Origin: Nitrospirota bacterium
GTDB lineage: Bacteria > Nitrospirota > Thermodesulfovibrionia > Thermodesulfovibrionales > UBA6898
Direction: 5' to 3'
NCBI GenBank assembly: GCA_016214855.1
Contig: JACRMT010000004.1
Location: 434,001-498,000, forward strand
Length of the DNA: 64,000 nt
The notes under the pieces were generated by a model. That model had not been told where the DNA came from. It did not search any database and was given only the letters and a program-made list of their open reading frames with translations. Positions within the stretch are counted from its first letter, which is position 1, and each line of letters starts with the position of its first letter. Shown one piece after another: positions 57 to 11,753 of the stretch. The translations under genes were made by a program, and so were the position numbers.

Positions 57-857
57 TCATTTTAATCCATTCAACTCCCACAGGTAATCAAAGTAATTCA
101 CCGTGTATTTCTGCGTGTCGATATATCTTCTCTCATCCGCCTTAAGAAAGGGGGATATGATATCAACGGCACTGAGCGCACCTTCAGGAAAAGTCTTACT
201 GTCGAATTTGAAGATCTGGGAAAAATAGACGGTATTGTTTTTAGTATCAATCAGAATGCCTTTTTTCGTATTACTCAGAAATCTGCGGGCCTGGTCTTCC
301 AATTGTTCCTTGAGACGGGCGCCGACATAGACCTCTTTTCTCATGTCGGGACAGCTGAGAGATGCGCAGACAATAGCATAATGTGCCATGCGAGCCCTAA
401 ATGTGCCCATGAGAATACCGTGTTCGATTTCATCCAGACTGTATTCCCTGCCACCGATGTTCAAGACATTCTTTTTCCATGGGTTTTTCAGTAGATTGAT
501 CTTCGTGCTCCTTATGCTGTCAACCGGGTAATGGTCCAGAATCATCTTAACCGCGCCGATATTATAGGCGTTGATCCAGAAAGCAATCCTGTCTAAATGG
601 GAAGATATAGTTTCAGGATTAAAGGAGCTCAATTGTCTAAGAATAAATGCATAATCGGACGACGAGGACGTGGACTCTTGATGAAGACCAGCATAGTCGA
701 CTGCGCTAATTGTTATTCCACTGATCGTTTTTCCTTCCTGCACGTAATTGTTCAGGAGCCTCTGGTACTGCTCTCCATCAAAAGGCGACGCGTTTGCCAT
801 TGCCGACATGACGGAAATAATAAAAACCACCAAACCGATATTCATGCTTCTATTCAC
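57..857 (-). CDS. DUF547 domain secreted protein
   Basis: 266 aa with an N-terminal hydrophobic signal segment (residues about 5-24, ending near ANASPF). The body carries DUF547-like motifs: FWINAYN at about 93-99, the ASLSCP segment and the YSLDEIEHGIL segment. The family is of unknown function and usually periplasmic. The start is a GTG at 857, chosen because GGAGG lies 7 bases upstream; an internal ATG follows four codons later. The gene is transcribed away from the Crp/Fnr gene at 1037, and the shared 180-base intergenic region holds a GTA-N8-TAC palindrome. A possible downstream gene may begin at position 19 on the same strand, but too little is present to judge. Confidence 0.85.
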   Translation of the reverse strand: MNRSMNIGLVVFIISVMSAMANASPFDGEQYQRLLNNYVQEGKTISGITISAVDYAGLHQESTSSSSDYAFILRQLSSFNPETISSHLDRIAFWINAYNIGAVKMILDHYPVDSIRSTKINLLKNPWKKNVLNIGGREYSLDEIEHGILMGTFRARMAHYAIVCASLSCPDMRKEVYVGARLKEQLEDQARRFLSNTKKGILIDTKNNTVYFSQIFKFDSKTFPEGALSAVDIISPFLKADERRYIDTQKYTVNYFDYLWELNGLK

Positions 858-1849: not shown

Positions 1850-2893
1850 TCAGTTAAGCAGAAAACACTGCGGGTCCTCCGCAAGGTAACTGCCCTCGCC
1901 CTGTGACTGGGAGAAAGCATAGGCTATTGCCCTGCATCCTCTGCAGGCAGACCACTTTGAGCAGGTACCGCATCTGCCCTGATATTGGGTCTTGTCCCGT
2001 AATGCCCTTAACGTTTCTGATGTTGCCCAGATCTCTCTCAGGGAGTCCTCCTTTACATTGCCGATTGGCAGAGGCATCCTCCTGCAGGGCGTGATAGTAC
2101 CGTCCGGGAGTATCGTCAGGCCGGACACTCCTGCCGCGCATCCTCCTGAGGGCAGAGGATCAGCAGCATCTCCGGCGGGATTTCTGAACTGCGATGCAAC
2201 CGGGTCACCGGTCACGATTTTCAGCCCCGGTATATGCAAAGAAAATATTTTATGGTATATCTGTTCCACAGCCTCGTTCGTCAGCATCCTGCCGAGCAAT
2301 ATTGCACCGCTTCCCGACGGCACAAGCCTCGAAAAGCCGACCCGCTGCGCGCCGGTTGAAGATGCGAGATCTATCACGTCCATGAAACAGTCTGCGTTCA
2401 GTTCAGAGAGGGTTGTATTCAAGGTCAGTTCGATCCCGGCATCGAGGATATTCCGTATGCCCTTGAGCGATGAGGCGAAGCTTCCTGCACCACGGATGCT
2501 GTCATGCACTTCCTCAGACCCCTCGATGCTTATCTGCACGCCTTTTACCCCGATCGCGGCGAGTCTGGCGGACAGCTCGCGGGTTATCAATGTCCCGTTC
2601 GAAAGCATATAGGTATCAATCGCGTTCTTTCTTAATTCTTCCAGGACCTCGAAAAGATCCGACCGCAGGAACGGTTCACCTCCGGTTACCGTAAAGCTCG
2701 AAGAAAGGTCGATCGCATATGCCTGCCTCCAGTCGTCAAGCATGCAGGACACTTCATCTATCAATAAGACTATTTCGGCCAAAGACATCTCTTTTGGCCT
2801 GTCTTCGGTCTGATAGCAATGTTTGCATTTGAGATTGCACCGTTCGGTAAGGTGCAGCTGGATAAAGAACTCGAAAGGATCAATTACCGGCAT
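1850..2893 (-). CDS. Radical SAM/SPASM peptide-maturase-like enzyme
   Basis: 347 aa. The radical SAM core starts with CNLKCKHC at about 19-26 (the CxxxCxxC cluster ligands), followed by the SAM-binding TGGEPFLR at about 70. The C-terminal SPASM region has C at about 250, a PCRRMP segment at about 269 and the cluster CGTCSKWSACRGC near 308-320, plus a late Cys at about 343. SPASM enzymes of this size typically modify ribosomal peptides (PqqE, anSME, mycofactocin and other maturases). The neighbouring 34-codon gene upstream on the same strand, separated by a terminator hairpin, fits a precursor/maturase pair. I cannot assign a named subfamily. Confidence 0.88.
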   Translation of the reverse strand: MPVIDPFEFFIQLHLTERCNLKCKHCYQTEDRPKEMSLAEIVLLIDEVSCMLDDWRQAYAIDLSSSFTVTGGEPFLRSDLFEVLEELRKNAIDTYMLSNGTLITRELSARLAAIGVKGVQISIEGSEEVHDSIRGAGSFASSLKGIRNILDAGIELTLNTTLSELNADCFMDVIDLASSTGAQRVGFSRLVPSGSGAILLGRMLTNEAVEQIYHKIFSLHIPGLKIVTGDPVASQFRNPAGDAADPLPSGGCAAGVSGLTILPDGTITPCRRMPLPIGNVKEDSLREIWATSETLRALRDKTQYQGRCGTCSKWSACRGCRAIAYAFSQSQGEGSYLAEDPQCFLLN

Positions 2894-2944
2894 ATCATTT
2901 CCCTGGCTTATTATTTGATCGCGAAGACAGTTTCAGCGCTCCTG

Positions 2945-3005
2945 CGAAAAAGGCAGATATGAAAGCGTGCACAGGAACAACTGGCAACGGCCTTTCATAT
3001 CTGCC
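2945..3005 (-). terminator. Hairpin with T-run between peptide gene and radical SAM gene
   Basis: Perfect 14-bp inverted repeat (2952-2965 and 2992-3005, arm GGCAGATATGAAAG). On the minus strand the second arm is followed directly by TTTTTC. It sits 47 bases after the short peptide stop and about 60 bases before the radical SAM start. This is the arrangement expected if the precursor is made in excess and the enzyme by read-through. Confidence 0.85.
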
Positions 3006-3051
3006 CGGGCACCTTGTTGCCTGACCGGCAACGTCAGCTCTTTCAACCCTT

Positions 3052-3156
3052 TCACTTGTGACATACCTTGCCAGGATTTTCTTTGGTCGCCTTCTTGAGA
3101 TTATCCCAGTAAGTGGCCTCCTGAGCGAGGGCTTCTTTGGACAGTGTCTTTTTCAT
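3052..3156 (-). CDS. 34-aa candidate RiPP precursor peptide
   Basis: 34 codons plus TGA. It begins MKKTLSKEAL and ends with a lysine-rich tail containing TYWDNL and ENPGKVCHK. A strong ribosome-binding site (GGGAGGTGAAG) lies just upstream of the ATG at 3156, supporting real translation. It is immediately upstream of the radical SAM/SPASM gene on the same strand, with a terminator between them. Possible modification targets are the Tyr-Trp pair and the single Cys near the C terminus; which residue is altered is unknown. I recognise no peptide family. It could instead be a small structural or regulatory peptide, but the context argues for a RiPP. Confidence 0.72.
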   Translation of the reverse strand: MKKTLSKEALAQEATYWDNLKKATKENPGKVCHK

Positions 3157-3325
3157 CCTTCTTCACCTCCCTTCTTCCTATGGATAGAGAATTACAGATA
3201 GATCGGCTCTATGATTTAATCTTATCATGTTAATTATGCATGTCAATACAAAGAGACATTGTGAAATAATGTCAAGCCTCGGTTACAAAGCTTGCAGGAA
3301 TTACCCTGACGCATATTGTCTAATA

Positions 3326-3494: not shown

Positions 3495-4187
3495 ATGACT
3501 ACAGAAAAAACGAAGCTCTGGTATCTGAAGAACCTCGACATGTTCAGTCATCTGCGTGATGAGGAACATAATATGATCGAGAAATACATGGAGATGAAAG
3601 AGATAAAAAAAGGAGATACCTTGTATCTGCAGGGGGCAGCTGATAAAAATATTTACCTCCTGAAAAAAGGCGCGGTGAAGATCACCAAGCTCACACCACA
3701 GGGGAAAGAGCTTATCCTCGATATTGTGAAGGGAGGCTCGATCTTCGGCGAAATGACCTATACAGATCCGAGAGAGCGTGATGAGTGCGCCGAGGTTATC
3801 GAGGATGGGCTGATCTGCACTATAAAAAAAGAGAGCTTCGATAAGCTGCTTGAGATGGTGCCAGGGTTGTCGATTCGGCTCACAAAAATGATCGGCCTCC
3901 GACGCTGGAAAATAGAGAACAAACTGCTTGATCTTCTTTTTTGTACGGTCGAGCAAAGGATAGTCAAAACAATTGTGAACCTTCTCGATGATTTTGGAGT
4001 CCCGCACAGCGGAGGCTATCTGCTAAAGATCAAGCTGACACACAAGGATTTCGCAGATTTGATCGCATCCACGCGGGAAACCGTTACTGCCGCACTTAAC
4101 AGGCTCAAAGACGGAGGATATATCGATTTTGAAGGAAAGTATCTTACTATCAGCAACCTGGAGAAGCTGAAGGGGCTCCTTGACTGA
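3495..4187 (+). CDS. Crp/Fnr family transcriptional regulator (paralogue 2)
   Basis: 230 aa, closely similar along its whole length to the protein at 1037-1735 (both begin MT.EK.KLWYL.NL and share GSIFGEMTYT and FADLIASTRETVTA). Sensor barrel at about 20-140, winged helix-turn-helix at about 180-228. No FNR-type Cys cluster. It ends 39 bases before rpe, with no terminator seen, so it may be the first gene of the pentose-phosphate operon. The near-identical recognition helices of the two paralogues suggest they read the same DNA site. Confidence 0.93.
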   Translation: MTTEKTKLWYLKNLDMFSHLRDEEHNMIEKYMEMKEIKKGDTLYLQGAADKNIYLLKKGAVKITKLTPQGKELILDIVKGGSIFGEMTYTDPRERDECAEVIEDGLICTIKKESFDKLLEMVPGLSIRLTKMIGLRRWKIENKLLDLLFCTVEQRIVKTIVNLLDDFGVPHSGGYLLKIKLTHKDFADLIASTRETVTAALNRLKDGGYIDFEGKYLTISNLEKLKGLLD

Positions 4188-4226: not shown

Positions 4227-4880
4227 ATGAAGATCGTTCCTGCAATTTTGACCGAGTCCGGTGATGAATGCGTAAATCTCATGCGCCTCGCGCAGTCCTT
4301 TGCTGACTTCATCCAGATAGACATCATGGATGGCCTCTTTGTATCGACAAGAAGTTTTCCCCCTGAAACCCTCAATGGTATGCCGACATCAATATTCTTT
4401 GAACTGCATCTTATGGTAAAAGACCCAATGTCAGTGGTGCAGAGTTTGAACAATAGACATATCAAAAAAATAATATTCCACGCGGAAACCCTGAACAATT
4501 ATCAGCCGATAATTGTTCAGATAAGAAGCATGGGAATCTCTCCGGGCATCGCTGTCAAGCCTGAAACCGAGTTAAACAGGTTCATTCGCTCGGCTCCTCT
4601 GCTCGATACCATCTTTTTTCTTACTGTTGACCCTGGCAATTACGGTAGCCCCTTTAGGCCTGAAGTACTCAATAAGATATCTCGGGCACGAAAGCTATTT
4701 CCTGCAGCAGAAATCGGGGTTGACGGCGCTGTTTCGCTCGATAATATAAGATCTTTTGTTGATATTGGGGTTGATTATGCCTGCGTGGGAAGCAGAATAT
4801 TTCGAAGTGAATCTCCCAAAGCAAGCTATCTGCAATTTATCCGAAAGCTGAAAGAAATCGAGGTGCAAAATGAATTTTGA
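4227..4880 (+). CDS. rpe: Ribulose-phosphate 3-epimerase
   Basis: 217 aa TIM-barrel enzyme that interconverts ribulose 5-phosphate and xylulose 5-phosphate. Visible signatures are IVPAILTES at the N terminus, the DIMDG metal/catalytic segment (about 35-39), ELHLMV (about 64-69) and the phosphate-binding GSRIF near 190. The conserved VDG loop is present (EIGVDGAVS). It overlaps the tkt start by 11 bases, showing translational coupling. AAGGAG lies 13 bases before the ATG, rather far. Confidence 0.93.
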
Positions 4881-6921
4881 AGAGCGTTGCATCACAACGA
4901 TCAGGATGCTCGCCGTCGATATGGTCCAAAAAGCTGATTCAGGGCACCCTGGTCTTCCCATGGGCGCTGCTGCCATGGCATATGTGCTATGGACAAGATT
5001 TCTCCAGCATAACCCGGCGAGCCCTTCATGGGCAGACAGGGATCGCTTTGTATTGTCTGCGGGCCATGGCTCCGCCCTGCTCTATTCGCTACTGCATCTC
5101 ACCGGATACGATCTGTCTCTGGATGAACTCAAACGATTTCGTCAGTGGGGGAGCAAGACCCCGGGGCATCCCGAATATCGTGTCACTCCCGGTGTGGAAT
5201 GTACGACAGGACCTCTCGGGCAGGGGATTGCAAACGCGGTAGGCCTAGCCATAGCGGAACGTCATCTTGCTGCACGTTTTAACAAACCGGAGCATGAAAT
5301 CGTCAATCATTTCACCTATATTCTTGTGGGTGATGGCGATCTTATGGAAGGCATTGCCTCTGAAGCGGCTTCTCTCGCCGGGCATCTTAGACTTGGAAAA
5401 CTTATTTGCTTATACGACAGCAACCGTATCACACTTTCAGCAGAAACAAGATTGCTTTTTACGGAGAATGTAAACAAGCGTTTCGATGCCTACGGTTGGC
5501 ATGTGCAGATAGTACAGGACGGCAATGACCTATCAGCTGTCGAGCAGGCGATAACCAGTGCACGCATAGAGTCTGATCGGCCTTCCCTTATCACCGTTAA
5601 GACCCATATCGGGTATGGGAGTCCGCACAAGCAGGATACCTTTGGTGCTCACGGCTCTCCTCTCGGTCCTGACGAAGTCCGGGATACCAAAAAGAACCTG
5701 GATTGGCCTCTTGAGCCTGATTTCTTTATCCCCGAAGATGTTCAGAGATATTTTAGAGATGCTGTGCGAAAAGGAGAAGAGGAAGAGGCGGCATGGGATA
5801 CTCTTATGCGGTCCTATGAGTCTATATTCCCTGACCTGGCAAAAGAGTGGGAGATGATTATGATCCATGATTTTCCGGAAGGATGGAAGCGAAATATCCC
5901 GGTATTTGAGGCTGACAAGAAAGGGATTGCCACACGCGCTGCCGGCGGACAGGTCATGAACAGCATTGCGAAGGATATCCATAATCTCATAGGAGGCTCT
6001 GCGGACCTCAATCCCTCGACCAATACCGAGCTGACAGGGAAAGGCAATTTTCAACCGGCAGAAACAGGAGTGGAGCATATTCAGGGAGCAGTATCTGGCC
6101 CTTGGGGATATGAAGGCCTAAATATCGCTTTTGGAGTAAGGGAACACGCCATGGGAGGGATCATGAACGGGATAGCCTACCATGGTGGGCTTATCCCCTT
6201 TGGCAGCACTTTTCTCGTTTTTTCCGACTATATGAGGCCGTCCATACGCCTTGCCGCCCTTTCGCAACTGCACGTCATTTATGTATTTACCCACGACTCT
6301 GTTGCAGTCGGCGAGGATGGTCCAACCCATCAGCCTGTTGAGCATCTTGCAAGCCTCAGGGCAATCCCCGGATTGACTGTGTTAAGACCTGCTGATGCTT
6401 CTGAGACCGCTGAATCCTGGAAATTTGCGCTTGATTACCGGGGCGGTCCCGTCGCGATTATCCTCAGCAGGCAGAAACTACCTATTATTGATCGGAAGCA
6501 ATATGGTCAGGCATCGGGCCTTGAAAAGGGGGCTTATATTCTGGCTGATTCAGAAGAGCATCCTGATATTGTCGTAATGGCCACAGGATCGGAAGTTCAT
6601 CTCGCCCTGGAAGCTCGTGAAAGGCTTCTCGGTGAGGGCATTCGGGCAAGGGTTGTCAGCATGCCCTCCTGGGAGCTCTTTGAAGAACAAAGCCCTGAAT
6701 ACAGGCAAGCTGTCCTTCCCGAATACGTCCCTAAAGTATCGATTGAGGCAGGTATCACTCAGGGATGGCACAAGTTTATCGGCAATGATGGTATTGCGAT
6801 AGGCATTGATCATTTTGGCGCATCAGCTCCGGGAGATGTTTTACTGAAGGAAATTGGCTTCACCACTGATGAAGTTGTACGAAAACTAATGGAGCTAACG
6901 AAAAGACAGAGGAGCGCATAA
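4870..6921 (+). CDS. tkt: Transketolase
   Basis: 683 aa, full length for the family. Thiamine-diphosphate-dependent transfer of two-carbon units in the pentose phosphate pathway. The N-terminal domain has [11 protein letters not shown] and the ThDP motif GDGDLMEG (about 153-160). The middle pyrimidine-binding domain has FGVREHAMG (catalytic Glu at about 418) and [15 protein letters not shown] (about 480). A C-terminal domain follows. The stop overlaps the rpiB start (TAATG). Confidence 0.97.
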
Positions 6922-7403
6922 TGAAAATAGCGATTGGTGCTGACCACGGCGGATTCAGTCTGAAAAATATTGCAGTGCCTTTTCTGAAAGAGCTTGGCCA
7001 CGATGTGTTCGATGTCGGCACTGATAGTGGGGCTCCTGTTGATTATCCGGATTACGCCCGGGCCGTATCTATGGAAATTCTGGGGAAGAGGGTTGAAAGA
7101 GGCATACTCATCTGCGGCAGCGGAGTGGGCGCCTGCGTCGCGGCCAACAAGTTTCCTGGAATACGAGCAGCTCTTTGTCACGACTCTTTCTCTGCCAGAC
7201 AGGGGGTGGAAGACGACAATGTAAACGTTCTTTGCCTCGGTGCAAGGATCATCGGCCCCGAGCTTGCCAAGGATATCGTAAAGATATGGCTTGCTGCCAC
7301 TTTTTCGGGGGCAGAACGGCATGTGCGAAGACTGGCGAAAGTGGATGAAATTGAAAAAGAATTCACGGTAAATTCAGAAAGAGGTGACGGCCATGGTCAA
7401 TAA
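6921..7403 (+). CDS. rpiB: Ribose-5-phosphate isomerase B
   Basis: 160 aa of the LacAB/RpiB family; interconverts ribose 5-phosphate and ribulose 5-phosphate. Signatures: GADHGGF (8-14), CGSGVGACVAANKFPGIRAA with the catalytic Cys (about 66), and the LGARIIG segment (about 110). The stop overlaps the beginning of tal. Confidence 0.95.
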   Translation: MKIAIGADHGGFSLKNIAVPFLKELGHDVFDVGTDSGAPVDYPDYARAVSMEILGKRVERGILICGSGVGACVAANKFPGIRAALCHDSFSARQGVEDDNVNVLCLGARIIGPELAKDIVKIWLAATFSGAERHVRRLAKVDEIEKEFTVNSERGDGHGQ

Positions 7404-8538
7404 TCCCCTGCGCGAACTTGGAGAACTTGGGCAAAGTGTCTGGCTCGACAACCTGAGCAGAAAACTCATTACGTCCGGCAGGTTAAATCAGTTTATTGTA
7501 GAAGATGGACTCAGAGGGATAACCACAAATCCGACAATATTCCAGAAAGCTATATCCGGAAGCGCTGACTATGACGGCCTGATCAAAGGGCTTCTGGAGC
7601 GCGGAATTACAAACGAAAAGGAGTTGTTTCTCAGTCTCGCCATGCGTGATGTGTCGGATGCAGCAGATATGCTGTTGCCGATCTATGAAGAGACTGGAGG
7701 ACGGGACGGATACGTGAGCATCGAGGTGTCTCCTGATCTTGCCTATGCCCCTGATAAAACTATACAGGAAGCAGAATATCTTTATGCCACAATCGGACGG
7801 AAGAATATTCTTGTCAAGGTTCCGGCCACAAGCGTCTGCATCCCCGCTATCGAATACCTCATCGGCCAGGGCATCAATGTAAACGTGACGCTTCTTTTTT
7901 CGGTGGCACGCTATGAAGAAGTTGCAGAAGCATATATAAGAGGTCTTGAGAAGAGAGCGGGGGAAAACCAGCCGATCAATATGATCGCATCAGTTGCCAG
8001 CTTCTTTGTAAGCAGGGTAGACACATTGATTGACAGACTCCTGATGGAAGGAACTATGGCAGAAACATCAAACACAAGAAAAGAGGATTTCCAGCGCCTC
8101 ATGGGAAGAGCTGCGGTTGCCAATGCCATAACCGCTTATGGTCGCTACCAGGATATTTTCTCCTCCAAACGCTTTCAGTCCCTGCAGCGTGAGGGAGCAG
8201 CGACTCAGCGGGTGCTCTGGGCAAGCACAGGTACGAAGAATCCGGACTACAGCGATGTTAAATACGCAGAGGAGTTAATCGCCCCTGATACGGTCAATAC
8301 TATGCCCGAATCACTGATGGAGGCTTTCAGAAATCACGGCAGGCCTGTGACTGCCATACGGGGAGACATTGCCGGACAGCCTGACCCTCTCATCACTGAA
8401 CTACGGGATGCAGGCATAGACATTGAGCTGATTGCCGCGGAACTCGAAAATGAGGGAGTAAAGCTCTTTGCAGACTCTTTCTCGTCAGTTCTGAGCGAAG
8501 TTGCCAAAAAAAGAGATATTCTATTATCTAAACAGTGA
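7393..8538 (+). CDS. tal: Transaldolase, long form
   Basis: 381 aa if started at ATG 7393, preceded by AGAGG with 8-base spacing; an in-frame GTG at 7384 would add three residues. It transfers a dihydroxyacetone unit between sugar phosphates. Signatures are GITTNPTIFQKA near the N terminus, the Schiff-base Lys in NILVKVPAT (about 137), NVTLLFS (about 160) and LWASTGTKNP (about 278). The length matches the Tal subfamily of about 370 aa, found in actinobacteria and cyanobacteria. It overlaps rpiB by 11 bases. Confidence 0.95.
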   Translation: MVNNPLRELGELGQSVWLDNLSRKLITSGRLNQFIVEDGLRGITTNPTIFQKAISGSADYDGLIKGLLERGITNEKELFLSLAMRDVSDAADMLLPIYEETGGRDGYVSIEVSPDLAYAPDKTIQEAEYLYATIGRKNILVKVPATSVCIPAIEYLIGQGINVNVTLLFSVARYEEVAEAYIRGLEKRAGENQPINMIASVASFFVSRVDTLIDRLLMEGTMAETSNTRKEDFQRLMGRAAVANAITAYGRYQDIFSSKRFQSLQREGAATQRVLWASTGTKNPDYSDVKYAEELIAPDTVNTMPESLMEAFRNHGRPVTAIRGDIAGQPDPLITELRDAGIDIELIAAELENEGVKLFADSFSSVLSEVAKKRDILLSKQ

Positions 8539-8557
8539 CTTATACCAGGGAGGAACT

Positions 8558-9466
8558 ATGAAAATTGGAATGGTCGGACTTGGAAAGATGGGAATGAATA
8601 TGGCCCGACGTCTGATTCAGAACGGGCAGGAGGTTGTAGCATTCAATAGGTCTCCGGAAAAAGTAGACGAGATAGTGAAAGAGGGGGCAATAGGCGCCTA
8701 TACCCTCAAAGAAATGCTTAATAAGCTTACGGCTCCCCGCATAGTTTGGCTTATGCTTCCGGCAGGAAAGCCGGTTGACGATGCGATTGAAAATCTCAAG
8801 CCATTGCTTGAAGAAGGAGATATTATTGTCGACGGCGGCAACAGCTTCTATAAAGATGATATCAGGCATGAGGAGTCGCTCAGGGCAGAGGGCATTCACT
8901 ACCTTGACGCAGGAGTAAGCGGTGGAATCTGGGGCCTGAAAATCGGTTATTGCCTGATGATCGGAGGAGAAGAGGAAGCATATGAAAAACTTGCCCCGAT
9001 ATTTACAGCTCTTGCGCCAGAGGACGGCTATCTCTATTGCGGACCGGCAGGCGCGGGTCACTTTGTCAAGATGATACATAACGGTATCGAATACGGCATG
9101 ATGGCTGCCTATGGGGAAGGTTTTGATATACTGAACGCCTCACCTTACGGAAACACGCTTGATTTCGGAGCGGTCGCCCACCTCTGGAACCAGGGAAGTG
9201 TCGTACGGTCGTGGCTGCTTGAGTTAGCAGAAGATGCCTTCAAAAAAGACGGTAAGCTTAATATGATCGAGGGTTTTGTCGAGGATTCAGGTGAGGGAAG
9301 ATGGACTGTCCAGCAGGCAATTGATTTTGCGGTGCCCGCCCCGGTAATCACTGCATCCCTTTTTCAGAGGTTCCGTTCGCGCCAGGATAATTCATTTTCG
9401 GACAGGCTTCTTGCAGCTTTGAGAAATGAGTTTGGGGGCCATGCCGTACAAAAAAAGGGGGAATAA
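8558..9466 (+). CDS. gnd: 6-phosphogluconate dehydrogenase, decarboxylating (short form)
   Basis: 302 aa from the ATG at 8558, which follows GGGAGGAACT. It oxidises and decarboxylates 6-phosphogluconate to ribulose 5-phosphate. It has the N-terminal Rossmann motif GLGKMGMNMARRL, VDGGNS (about 92), the substrate-binding AGVSGGIWG (about 120) and the catalytic KMIHNGIEYGMM (about 171). The length of about 300 marks the short YqeC-like/GndA-type form, often NAD-preferring, rather than the 470-aa form. Confidence 0.95.
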   Translation: MKIGMVGLGKMGMNMARRLIQNGQEVVAFNRSPEKVDEIVKEGAIGAYTLKEMLNKLTAPRIVWLMLPAGKPVDDAIENLKPLLEEGDIIVDGGNSFYKDDIRHEESLRAEGIHYLDAGVSGGIWGLKIGYCLMIGGEEEAYEKLAPIFTALAPEDGYLYCGPAGAGHFVKMIHNGIEYGMMAAYGEGFDILNASPYGNTLDFGAVAHLWNQGSVVRSWLLELAEDAFKKDGKLNMIEGFVEDSGEGRWTVQQAIDFAVPAPVITASLFQRFRSRQDNSFSDRLLAALRNEFGGHAVQKKGE

Positions 9467-9468
9467 CC

Positions 9469-11028
9469 ATGACAGAAGGGCATCTTTTTGACATGGCAGG
9501 GAATGTTTCAGGCAAAATTATTTCCAGCTCTGACTCCCACTGTAATATTGATATCCCTTCCCCCTGTGCTGTGGTTATATTCGGGGCTTCAGGTGATCTC
9601 ACCAAAAGGAAGATAATCCCATCGCTCTATCGGCTCTTTGCGATTAATCTGCTTCCGGATCCCTTCTTTGTAATTGGAACTGCCCGAACTCAGCTCGGTG
9701 ACAACGACTTCAGAGAATCGATGAGGGAAGCAGTAAAAGAAGCTGTCCCCAAGGACTTCTCAGAGAGCTCCTGGCTGACTTTTTCTGAAATGCTTCATTA
9801 TCACCGCGTCGAATACGACGTGCAGTATACCTATGCAGGGTTGAAGGACAAGCTGCTGATTCTTGAGAAAGAACATGGCACTGGTGGAAACAGAATATAT
9901 TATCTTGCCACCCCACCCACTGTTTATGAGCCGGTCATCGAAAACCTCGGGATAGCAGGGCTATCGAAGGAAGATGGGGGATACAGGCATATCGTTGTAG
10001 AAAAGCCTATCGGCAGTGATCTTGAGTCGGCTGTGCATCTGAACAAGACACTTGCCGCATTTTTTACCGAGCGCCAGATATATCGCATGGACCATTATCT
10101 CGCAAAAGAGACTGTCCAGAACATCCTGATGTTCAGGTTCGCCAATTCGATATTTGAGCCGATATGGAACAGTCGATATATCGACCATGTTCAGATTACT
10201 GCCTCTGAGACCCTCGGCGTCGAGCACAGGGCTGGATATTACGAGAAGGCCGGCGTGGTACGAGATATGTTTCAGAACCACATCTTCCAGCTTCTTGCCT
10301 TGACGGCAATGGAACCACCTGCGCTCTTTGATGCCGATCGGGTAAGAGATGAAAAAGTGAAGGTCTTCAGGTCTATCCGACCCTTCCAGCTTGACAGCCT
10401 CAATACGCAGGTTGTAGTCGGGCAGTATGGGAAAGGAACTATAAACGGAAAAGAGGCAGTTGCTTACCGGGATGAGTCCGGCGTATTCCCTGAATCAACA
10501 ACACCTACTTATGCAGCGCTTAAAGTTCATGTGGATAATTGGAGATGGAAAGGAGTTCCCTTCTATCTCCGGTCGGGAAAGAGGCTGCGTTCACGGAAAG
10601 CGGAGATTGCTATTCATTTCAAACCGGTGCCTCATCTTATGTTTTCTCATGCGATTGAAGATGGCATTGAGCCGAATGTATTGATTCTCAGGGTCCAGCC
10701 GGATGAGGGCATAGGGATCCATTTTCAGGCAAAAAACCCAGGTTCAAAGGTATGTCTCAATACCGTCCTTATGAACTTCTCATACCAGAATGTTTCTCTG
10801 CTCGATGGCTATGAGCGGGTGCTGCTCGACTGCATGCAAGGGGATCAGATGTTATTCGTGCGTTCTGACGGCGTGCAGCAGACATGGACATTATTGACTC
10901 CCCTGATAGATAAATTGACGGCAGCTGTACGACCCAATGAATTTCCTAACTACGAATCAGGCTCTTCAGGTCCCGCTGCTGCAGAGGATCTCATGAAGAG
11001 AGACGGCAGGGTATGGAGACCTCTCTGA
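9469..11028 (+). CDS. zwf: Glucose-6-phosphate 1-dehydrogenase
   Basis: 519 aa. First step of the oxidative pentose phosphate pathway. The dinucleotide-binding motif GASGDLTKRK lies at about 35-44, and the active-site RMDHYLAKE (with His) at about 204-212. An N-terminal extension of about 30 residues precedes the usual start. The gene begins two bases after gnd ends and overlaps pgl by 16 bases. Confidence 0.97.
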   Translation: MTEGHLFDMAGNVSGKIISSSDSHCNIDIPSPCAVVIFGASGDLTKRKIIPSLYRLFAINLLPDPFFVIGTARTQLGDNDFRESMREAVKEAVPKDFSESSWLTFSEMLHYHRVEYDVQYTYAGLKDKLLILEKEHGTGGNRIYYLATPPTVYEPVIENLGIAGLSKEDGGYRHIVVEKPIGSDLESAVHLNKTLAAFFTERQIYRMDHYLAKETVQNILMFRFANSIFEPIWNSRYIDHVQITASETLGVEHRAGYYEKAGVVRDMFQNHIFQLLALTAMEPPALFDADRVRDEKVKVFRSIRPFQLDSLNTQVVVGQYGKGTINGKEAVAYRDESGVFPESTTPTYAALKVHVDNWRWKGVPFYLRSGKRLRSRKAEIAIHFKPVPHLMFSHAIEDGIEPNVLILRVQPDEGIGIHFQAKNPGSKVCLNTVLMNFSYQNVSLLDGYERVLLDCMQGDQMLFVRSDGVQQTWTLLTPLIDKLTAAVRPNEFPNYESGSSGPAAAEDLMKRDGRVWRPL

Positions 11029-11753
11029 AAGACGATATCCGAATATTGCCTGATCCGGAAAGTTTGGCTCATGCAGCGGCAACCATTTTTGCAGATGCTG
11101 CTAAGCAAGCCATTGCAGCTCATGACAGATTTTCTGTAGCGCTTTCGGGAGGTTCGACTCCACGACAGCTGTTCCGAATACTCGGTTCAGACTATCGTAA
11201 TTCGATCAGGTGGGACTCAGTTCATCTTTTTTGGACCGACGAACGAGCTGTACCGCCGCAGCATGAGCAGAGCAATTACAGACTTGCACATGATGAACTG
11301 ATCTCAAAAGTAGCGATACCTTACAATAACATCCATCGGATACAGGGGGAACTCGCTCCTTCCGGGGCGGCAAAAGAGTATGAAAAGGAACTTCGACACC
11401 ACTTTGGCGACCATGACATACCGGTATTTGATCTCATTCTTCTCGGTCTCGGACAGGATGGACATACTGCTTCTCTCTTCCCGGAATCAGAGGCATTGCT
11501 GGAAAAGGACCATCTTGTTGCTCCTTCATATTCTAAGTCCGCTGATAACTGGAGAGTTACATTGACCTTACCGGTTCTGAACAATGCAGCGAATATAGTC
11601 TTTCTCATAGCAGGAAAGTCAAAGGTCAGTATTATCAATGAGATTTTTTCAAGAGGAAGAGGACATCTTTATCCCGCCGGTCAGATCAATCCCGCAAAAG
11701 GCCACATTACCTGGCTTCTGGACAGAGAATCGGCATCTGAGCTGCAGAGATGA
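11013..11753 (+). CDS. pgl: 6-phosphogluconolactonase
   Basis: 246 aa, DevB/Pgl type. It hydrolyses 6-phosphogluconolactone. Signatures: ALSGGSTPRQLF (about 43-54), FWTDERAVPPQHEQSNY (about 71-87) and LGLGQDGHTASLFP (about 145-158). It has a 4-base ATGA overlap with the next gene. Confidence 0.95.
   Translation: METSLKDDIRILPDPESLAHAAATIFADAAKQAIAAHDRFSVALSGGSTPRQLFRILGSDYRNSIRWDSVHLFWTDERAVPPQHEQSNYRLAHDELISKVAIPYNNIHRIQGELAPSGAAKEYEKELRHHFGDHDIPVFDLILLGLGQDGHTASLFPESEALLEKDHLVAPSYSKSADNWRVTLTLPVLNNAANIVFLIAGKSKVSIINEIFSRGRGHLYPAGQINPAKGHITWLLDRESASELQR

Follow-up and report, generated by a model that had tools for sequence, protein, structure and literature searches.

A probable selenopeptide cassette with a radical SAM/SPASM enzyme in uncultured Nitrospirota

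The question raised by this locus is whether a short gene lying ahead of a radical SAM (rSAM) enzyme gene encodes a precursor peptide for that enzyme and, if so, where the peptide ends. The window, a stretch of 64,000 nucleotides from the genome of a Nitrospirota bacterium (G000; other G numbers denote relatives and L numbers denote loci), had been read as carrying a RiPP cassette made of a 34-residue peptide, a terminator and an rSAM enzyme with a SPASM domain. From the sequence evidence presented here, we consider it likely that the cassette encodes a selenopeptide together with its rSAM/SPASM maturase, and that the product is used inside the cell. The features of the locus are the following.

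1037-1735 and 3495-4187: Crp/Fnr paralogues
1850..2893, minus strand: rSAM/SPASM enzyme, 347 aa (Pfam PF04055, PF13186)
2947..3005, minus strand: terminator-like hairpin in the gap between precursor and enzyme, a 14-bp perfect inverted repeat plus T5
3016..3032, minus strand: SECIS-like hairpin with a 6-bp stem and a GGUCA loop
3034..3036, minus strand: presumed real stop codon of the precursor, TGA in the window and TGA, TAA or TAG in homologues
3037..3156, minus strand: putative precursor gene of 40 codons, 34 of them ordinary (3055-3156), followed by the Sec extension
3043-3045, minus strand: TGA of the putative Sec38, with K39-S40 next
3052-3054, minus strand: TGA of the putative Sec35, with K36-G37 next
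3164..3170, minus strand: Shine-Dalgarno GGAGGTG of the precursor

The short gene with a strong ribosome-binding site on which the original prediction was built was recovered as an ATG frame at 3156-3055 (minus strand) preceded by the Shine-Dalgarno sequence GGAGGTG, and the same sequence stood ahead of the peptide in 57 of the 63 homologous loci, with a close variant in the other six. These loci were assembled by searching the 34-residue stretch against 395 genomes of the phylum, which gave matches in 61 genomes at E ≤ 0.1 and in 59 after removal of G084 and G120, where partial chance matches lay in long frames; with the relatives G004, G007, G018 and G024, the set comprised 63 loci in 63 genomes. 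The precursor alignment suggested earlier as a way of finding invariant residues yielded E13, W17, C32 and K34 (window numbering), each kept in 63/63, and the near-invariant L10 (62/63) and P28 (61/63). As had been claimed, the peptide matched no known family: the 34-mer had no match in NCBIfam or Pfam, and the 40-mer described below had no match in NCBIfam either.

The peptide had been taken to comprise 34 residues ending in GKVCHK, an end point that had to be revised, as the frame reaches residue 40 by way of two in-frame TGA codons. The codon following K34 was TGA in 63/63 homologous loci, the second in-frame TGA was also present in 63/63, and the frame read U-[K/S/N]-[G/S/A]-U-[K/R]-S-stop. 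The final stop fell at that codon in 60 of the 63 loci (TGA in 35, TAA in 19 and TAG in 6), and the remaining three loci had one extra residue and then TAG. Residue 37 was always small (codons GGC, GGT, AGC, AGT, GCC or TCC), Ser40 was encoded by AGC or AGT and, in G166, by TCG, and across the 63 loci the codon changes past the UGA were synonymous or conservative in the peptide frame. A comparison of the three frames past the UGA over 42 haplotypes (82 loci) gave 8 protein strings and 64.5% synonymous codon differences for the peptide frame, against 17 strings and 44.5% for the +2 frame, which begins at an ATG/GTG overlapping the UGA, and 24 strings and 9.7% for the +1 frame. The locus thus carries one of the marks by which a selenoprotein gene is recognized, an in-frame UGA with coding-type conservation beyond it.

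The same pattern was retrieved with a 40-position profile, in which Cys was placed at both Sec sites. Among 230 genomes of the class, 75 were matched at E ≤ 0.01, and the strong matches (E ≤ 1.8e-11) occupied 74 places in 73 genomes, each with exactly two internal TGA codons; the weak matches in G218, G356, G370:C219 and G376:C39 were left out as partial. Out of sample, in 18 new genomes, 19/19 new places showed U-x-[G/S/A]-U-K-S-stop, with the stop at codon 7 in 17 and at codon 8 in two. No homologue with a Cys codon occurred among the 74 strong places, which leaves no case for the usual Sec/Cys exchange test. The peptide was single-copy in 72 of the 73 strong-match genomes, a copy number like that of a cofactor and unlike that of a diversified antibiotic. 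The sole exception, G413, carried two copies (L202 and L204) with an enzyme downstream of each.

Downstream of the second UGA lies a hairpin, overlooked in the first reading, that we compared with the bSECIS model, for which the available text of PMC13188914 gives a UGA-loop distance of 16-37 nt, a stem length of 4-16 bp, a 3-9-nt loop with G in the first two positions, and an MFE no higher than -7.5 kcal/mol. The window hairpin, whose loop lies 16 nt from UGA(38) and 25 nt from UGA(35), agreed with all four requirements for both UGAs. Its MFE was -10.0 kcal/mol and that of four other loci ranged from -8.4 to -20.8 kcal/mol, with z-scores that were modest singly (-1.5 to -1.9, and -4.4 in G177) among these 5 of the 63 loci that were folded. 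In a search for the best hairpin within 60 nt of the second UGA, in which no loop sequence was demanded, a stem of at least six pairs with a GGU or GGG loop was recovered in 58/63 loci, compared with 3.0% of 6,300 mononucleotide shuffles. With the loop fixed, six pairs were found in 56/63 loci, five in six loci and two in one, and among 30 distinct segments paired changes were present at pair 1 (C-G/T-A) and at pairs 4 and 5 (T-A/C-G). Counted from the second UGA, the GG of the loop occupied position 19-22 in 55/63 loci. The UGA-loop spacing was 15 nt in G229 and exceeded the bSECIS range in G254, G029 and G360; the hairpin lay further off in G254 and G029, behind an inserted small hairpin, as well as in several f4 genomes and G082, was missing in G360 and was weak in G057 and the sisters G405/G406. 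In the 19 new places, six pairs were formed in 15, five in two and three in two (the same sisters). An Rfam search of window positions 2880-3250 returned sub-threshold matches only. A single hairpin must serve both UGAs, which counts against the selenopeptide reading.

The genome of the window encodes SelB (375 bits), SelA (616 bits) and a tRNA-Sec with anticodon TCA (UCA), and it holds three formate-dehydrogenase-like genes with an in-frame TGA. The one at C3:1694 (partial, 159 bits) has a GGUC loop about 22 nt from its UGA, as in the cassette; of the other two, one has an AGUC loop and the full-score one (C4) a different loop. Across the phylum, SelB was above the cut-off in 172/395 genomes and, judged by E-value, was present in 55/59 peptide genomes versus 117/336 others, an association confounded by kinship. 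SelA was above the cut-off in 55/59 peptide genomes, and also in G064 (56/60). In the 22 genomes searched for tRNA-Sec, it was above the cut-off in 17 of the 18 peptide genomes tested (the exception being G334) and in G064 and G002, and not above it in G012 or G085. Gaps in the machinery were seen in G057 (neither SelA nor SelB), G097 (without SelA and full-score SelB), G334 (without SelA and tRNA-Sec), G387 and G124 (no full-score SelB) and G090 (a SelA fragment only), and are perhaps assembly gaps. Taken together, the UGA pattern, the hairpin, the Sec machinery and the formate-dehydrogenase genes with in-frame TGA indicate that the precursor is most likely a 40-mer ending in C-x-x-U-x-x-U-K-S, and we infer that selenocysteine is the residue inserted. 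As the precursor is very probably this 40-residue selenopeptide and not a 34-mer, its C-terminus, key residues and chemistry differ from those of the first reading.

The enzyme gene was confirmed as encoding an rSAM protein with a SPASM cysteine set at 1850-2893 (minus strand), with matches to PF04055 and PF13186. CxxxCxxC is found at positions 19/23/26 and the SPASM cysteines at 252, 270, 308, 311, 317, 320 and 343, and all three rSAM and seven SPASM cysteines were kept in 60/60 aligned orthologues. A seven-Cys SPASM domain is the type found in enzymes with two auxiliary clusters. The enzyme scored below the cut-off for all 25 NCBIfam families listed of the 91 matched, with bits/cut-off of 183/500 for AhbD (TIGR04545), 180/500 for NirJ2 (TIGR04055), 172/400 for ACGX (TIGR04340), 131/350 for SbtM (TIGR04082), 131/265 for MftC, 94.2/381 for PqqE (TIGR02109), 123/650 for WgkB, 73.6/340 for PapB and 67.8/300 for SkfB. 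The nearest solved chain was SkfB (6efn, 75 bits), and an AlphaFold2 model from five sequences was set aside at a mean pLDDT of 55.9. A contig scan with the enzyme recovered four loci, all in Nitrospirota MAGs (closest L062, 86% identity), and tblastn against plasmids gave 49 records, all below 60% identity and at 30-33% among the 15 listed. Eight relatives of the enzyme (G028, G040, G051, G060, G181, G249, G266 and G336; 207-240 bits, 36-41% identity) were set aside as another subfamily, and the best match of the 34-position precursor profile in those eight genomes was no better than E 0.06. In the f4 loci L075, L079, L082, L084, L088 and L093 and in the f9 locus L083, the enzyme apparently starts at the ATG/GTG overlapping the first Sec UGA, so that the precursor end and enzyme start would share DNA in two frames.

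Loss of the peptide frame beside orthologous enzymes had been set beforehand as the observation that would refute the cassette; the frame was kept, with the enzyme downstream, on the same strand and within about 400 nt in 56/63 loci. The enzyme was on another contig in the other seven (G057, G243, G284, G334, G340, G364 and G385), so that the pair is kept together in the genome even when unlinked. Among the 395 genomes of the phylum, the peptide was found in 59, the enzyme (at least 395 bits) in 59 and both in 58 (2x2 table, P = 1.7e-67 with kinship ignored). In G306 the peptide adjoins an enzyme split between two frames, and the peptide was not detected in the enzyme-bearing genomes G064 and G026 (66% complete). 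In the 19 new places, the enzyme was directly downstream in 15, the contigs of G405 and G452 ended too soon to tell, and no enzyme was present in the 4 kb downstream of the peptide in G448 and G455. Adjacency and co-occurrence therefore support the RiPP-type layout first proposed, in which a precursor would be served by one dedicated rSAM/SPASM maturase: a conserved short precursor co-occurs with an enzyme carrying CxxxCxxC and a seven-Cys SPASM domain, two of the traits by which such systems are assigned.

If the peptide instead ended at the first UGA, the conserved stretch downstream would act only as regulatory RNA (hairpin and terminator). That stretch is indeed structured, and UGA serves these genomes as an ordinary stop codon, accounting for 31 of 66 complete stops of the enzyme-cluster genes (TGA 31, TAA 23, TAG 12, four distant relatives included). 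However, regulatory RNA alone does not account for coding-type substitutions past the UGA, the invariance of the second UGA, the confinement of the stop to codon 7 or 8, the AGC-to-TCG switch at Ser in G166 or the recurrence of the pattern in 19/19 new places, and we regard this explanation as improbable. An equally small probability is given to a frame that continues with UGA read as Cys by a selC*-type tRNA-Cys, or as another residue, and not as Sec. According to the accessible part of PMC7609411, selC* tRNA-Cys occurs in Nitrospirae, and in G364, a few kb away from the unlinked peptide, a second SelB is accompanied by a 94-nt tRNA-Cys(GCA); the anticodon of this tRNA, however, is GCA and not UCA, and the genome of the window carries, besides SelA and SelB, a tRNA-Sec(TCA) of the ordinary kind and formate-dehydrogenase genes that contain an in-frame TGA. 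In addition, none of the strong places has a Cys codon where the UGA stands, an unexpected pattern if the residue needed were Cys.

Alternatively, a second frame (MKxLKEL) could begin in the conserved stretch, at a translationally coupled start that overlaps the UGA; in f4/f9 this would be the N-terminus of the enzyme. The enzyme frame does run from that ATG/GTG in the f4 and f9 loci, and changes at the Leu codons of this frame are mostly synonymous, but the frame is less conserved than that of the peptide (17 protein strings versus 8), is disturbed in G374 (Leu7 to Arg) and G166, and in the window (2933-3064) stops ahead of the enzyme. As the sole meaning of the stretch this is the least probable of the alternatives, and a second-frame start and Sec reading can coexist. 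Only slightly less remote is an enzyme of the tetrapyrrole type, AhbD/NirJ2-like and no peptide maturase, with the peptide as a regulator or small subunit. AhbD (183 bits) and NirJ2 (180 bits) are its best NCBIfam scores, yet both are far under the cut-offs (500), the enzyme co-occurs one-to-one with the peptide even when the two are unlinked, and no haem family was present among the scanned recurrent neighbours.

Under the selenopeptide reading, the hairpin, 16-25 nt further downstream, would direct SelB and Sec-tRNA(Sec) to insert selenocysteine at UGA35 and UGA38. The resulting precursor of 40 residues would consist of a Lys-rich body, which contains the invariant E-x3-W, and a C-terminal C-x-x-U-x-x-U-K-S. 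The perfect 14-bp hairpin with a T-run noted earlier was found as the inverted repeat 2952-2965 / 2992-3005 with T5 next on the minus strand (fold -30.2 kcal/mol, z -6.6 for the terminator-like stretch), and a terminator-like hairpin ahead of the enzyme passed a strict test in 18/63 loci compared with 1/315 shuffles. Such a hairpin favours an excess of precursor, so that where it separates the two genes, as in the window, the precursor would be made in excess over the enzyme. The enzyme would then modify the precursor in the cytosol, most likely by forming a bond at the conserved residues, either a seleno- or thioether in which the Cys/Sec cluster takes part or a C-C link that joins Glu13 to Trp17; we hold a Cys/Sec-centred and a Glu-Trp bond to be about equally likely. 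The absence of an adjacent peptidase or transporter, pointed out previously, was borne out, with neither a peptidase nor an exporter among the annotated recurrent neighbours. Together with the single copy and the conserved full length, this suggests an internal cofactor rather than an antibiotic, and the product would probably serve as an intracellular cofactor of the thiol/selenol redox or soft-metal type. More specifically, and rather speculatively, Nitrospirota might possess a genetically encoded selenium cofactor comparable to PQQ or mycofactocin. It would be made from a double-Sec peptide in which the rSAM enzyme has joined the Cys/Sec/Sec cluster and the Glu-Trp pair, and inside the cell it would carry redox equivalents in an NADPH-coupled manner or bind soft metals, a proposal that we think unlikely to hold in this form.

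Pairs of residues at i/i+4 that end in an aromatic residue are found in PqqA (E-x3-Y) and streptide (K-x3-W). The cassette resembles PqqA/PqqE and StrA/StrB in its short precursor, SPASM enzyme and i/i+4 spacing, here an E-x3-W invariant in 63/63, and differs from the PqqE and streptide types in the low scores of its enzyme (PqqE 94/381, WgkB 123/650 bits) and in the Sec of its precursor. With the ranthipeptide and sactipeptide maturases PapB and SkfB, both thioether enzymes, it shares the SPASM domain, whereas its enzyme is under both cut-offs and the C-terminus of its precursor has one Cys and two Sec. PapB is reported to form a selenoether on a Sec peptide, and Sec substitution to show direct peptide binding at an auxiliary cluster during selenoether formation, in the available portion of PMC10470005.

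Among the 119 prokaryotic selenoprotein families inventoried in 2026, one RiPP-type entry was found in the accessible text, the selenobacteriocin TIGR04081 (SGUG, 2 Sec), and Table 1 of that inventory describes no short CxxUxxU peptide (PMC13188914). SbtM takes four hydrogens off Cys and Sec substrates, the Cys product being a thiooxazole by NMR, as stated in the part of PMC11002830 that was available. Judged from the accessible text of these two sources, the cassette is like SbtA/SbtM in combining a short Sec-containing precursor, a SECIS-type element and an rSAM/SPASM enzyme (PMC13188914, PMC11002830); in contrast, its enzyme reaches 131/350 bits on TIGR04082, its precursor has no match to TIGR04081, and CxxUxxU plus ExxxW take the place of the SbtA SGUG. 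Because precursor and enzyme fail both Sbt profiles, we class the cassette by its presumed working, as a Sec-containing rSAM RiPP and not as an Sbt member. Two Sec three residues apart also occur in UxxU selenoproteins (Prx-like, NF041115 metal-binding and FmdB family, in the accessible text of PMC13188914), but these are named as protein or domain families, unlike a 40-residue peptide with an rSAM partner. Our literature search found no earlier description of the cassette, which does not prove its absence from print.

The cassette thus suggests that uncultured Nitrospirota make a selenium-containing peptide product of a kind not described before. If this is true, a gene caller halting at the first UGA truncates the peptide, and the selenium RiPP of 73/230 genomes of the class would have been hidden by that truncation. 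Natural Sec-containing rSAM peptides, so far represented by selenobacteriocin, would then include a second kind, marked by a CxxUxxU that holds two Sec and one Cys. The cassette would also offer directly testable cases of a single SECIS-type hairpin acting on two UGA codons that lie nine bases apart and of a SPASM enzyme with a selenol as its natural substrate.

The two Crp/Fnr paralogues said to flank the cassette are present in the window but are not a conserved part of it, the cluster occurring in G000 and G252 only in the neighbour listing, and they were dropped as cassette members. A DUF547 protein gene at 57-857 (minus strand) adjoins the first of them. Among the recurrent neighbours were pyridine-nucleotide disulfide reductases, TrxB-like and lipoamide-dehydrogenase-like. 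A YceI-like gene was next downstream, on the same strand and within 300 nt, in 10 loci, following the enzyme in G009, G023, G018, G246, G252, G233, G338 and G073 and the unlinked peptide in G284 and G334. In nine loci (G004, G005, G007, G015, G020, G026, G159, G352 and G383), the enzyme was followed by a small membrane methyltransferase-like gene with weak matches to isoprenylcysteine O-methyltransferase and the methanethiol methyltransferase MddA, which overlapped the enzyme end by 7-21 nt in 7/9. Such neighbours, like the pentose-phosphate genes described next, would be in keeping with a redox or selenium theme but prove nothing.

A zwf cluster was located upstream of the peptide in G127, G124, G090, G111 and G370, with a pgl cluster in four of these, and a transketolase cluster was found behind the unlinked enzyme in G284, G334 and G385. 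The window itself carries rpe-tkt-rpiB-tal at 4227-8538. The pentose-phosphate genes near the cassette are a possible NADPH link. MqnE/MqnC menaquinone genes lay behind the enzyme in seven genomes, all of family f4. Near the unlinked peptide of L077 (G364:C13), positions 6577-11521 hold a fusion of an ArsS-type radical SAM with an ArsM-like methyltransferase, an aquaporin-like gene (by eye), the second SelB and the 94-nt tRNA-Cys(GCA), which resembles the selC* class.
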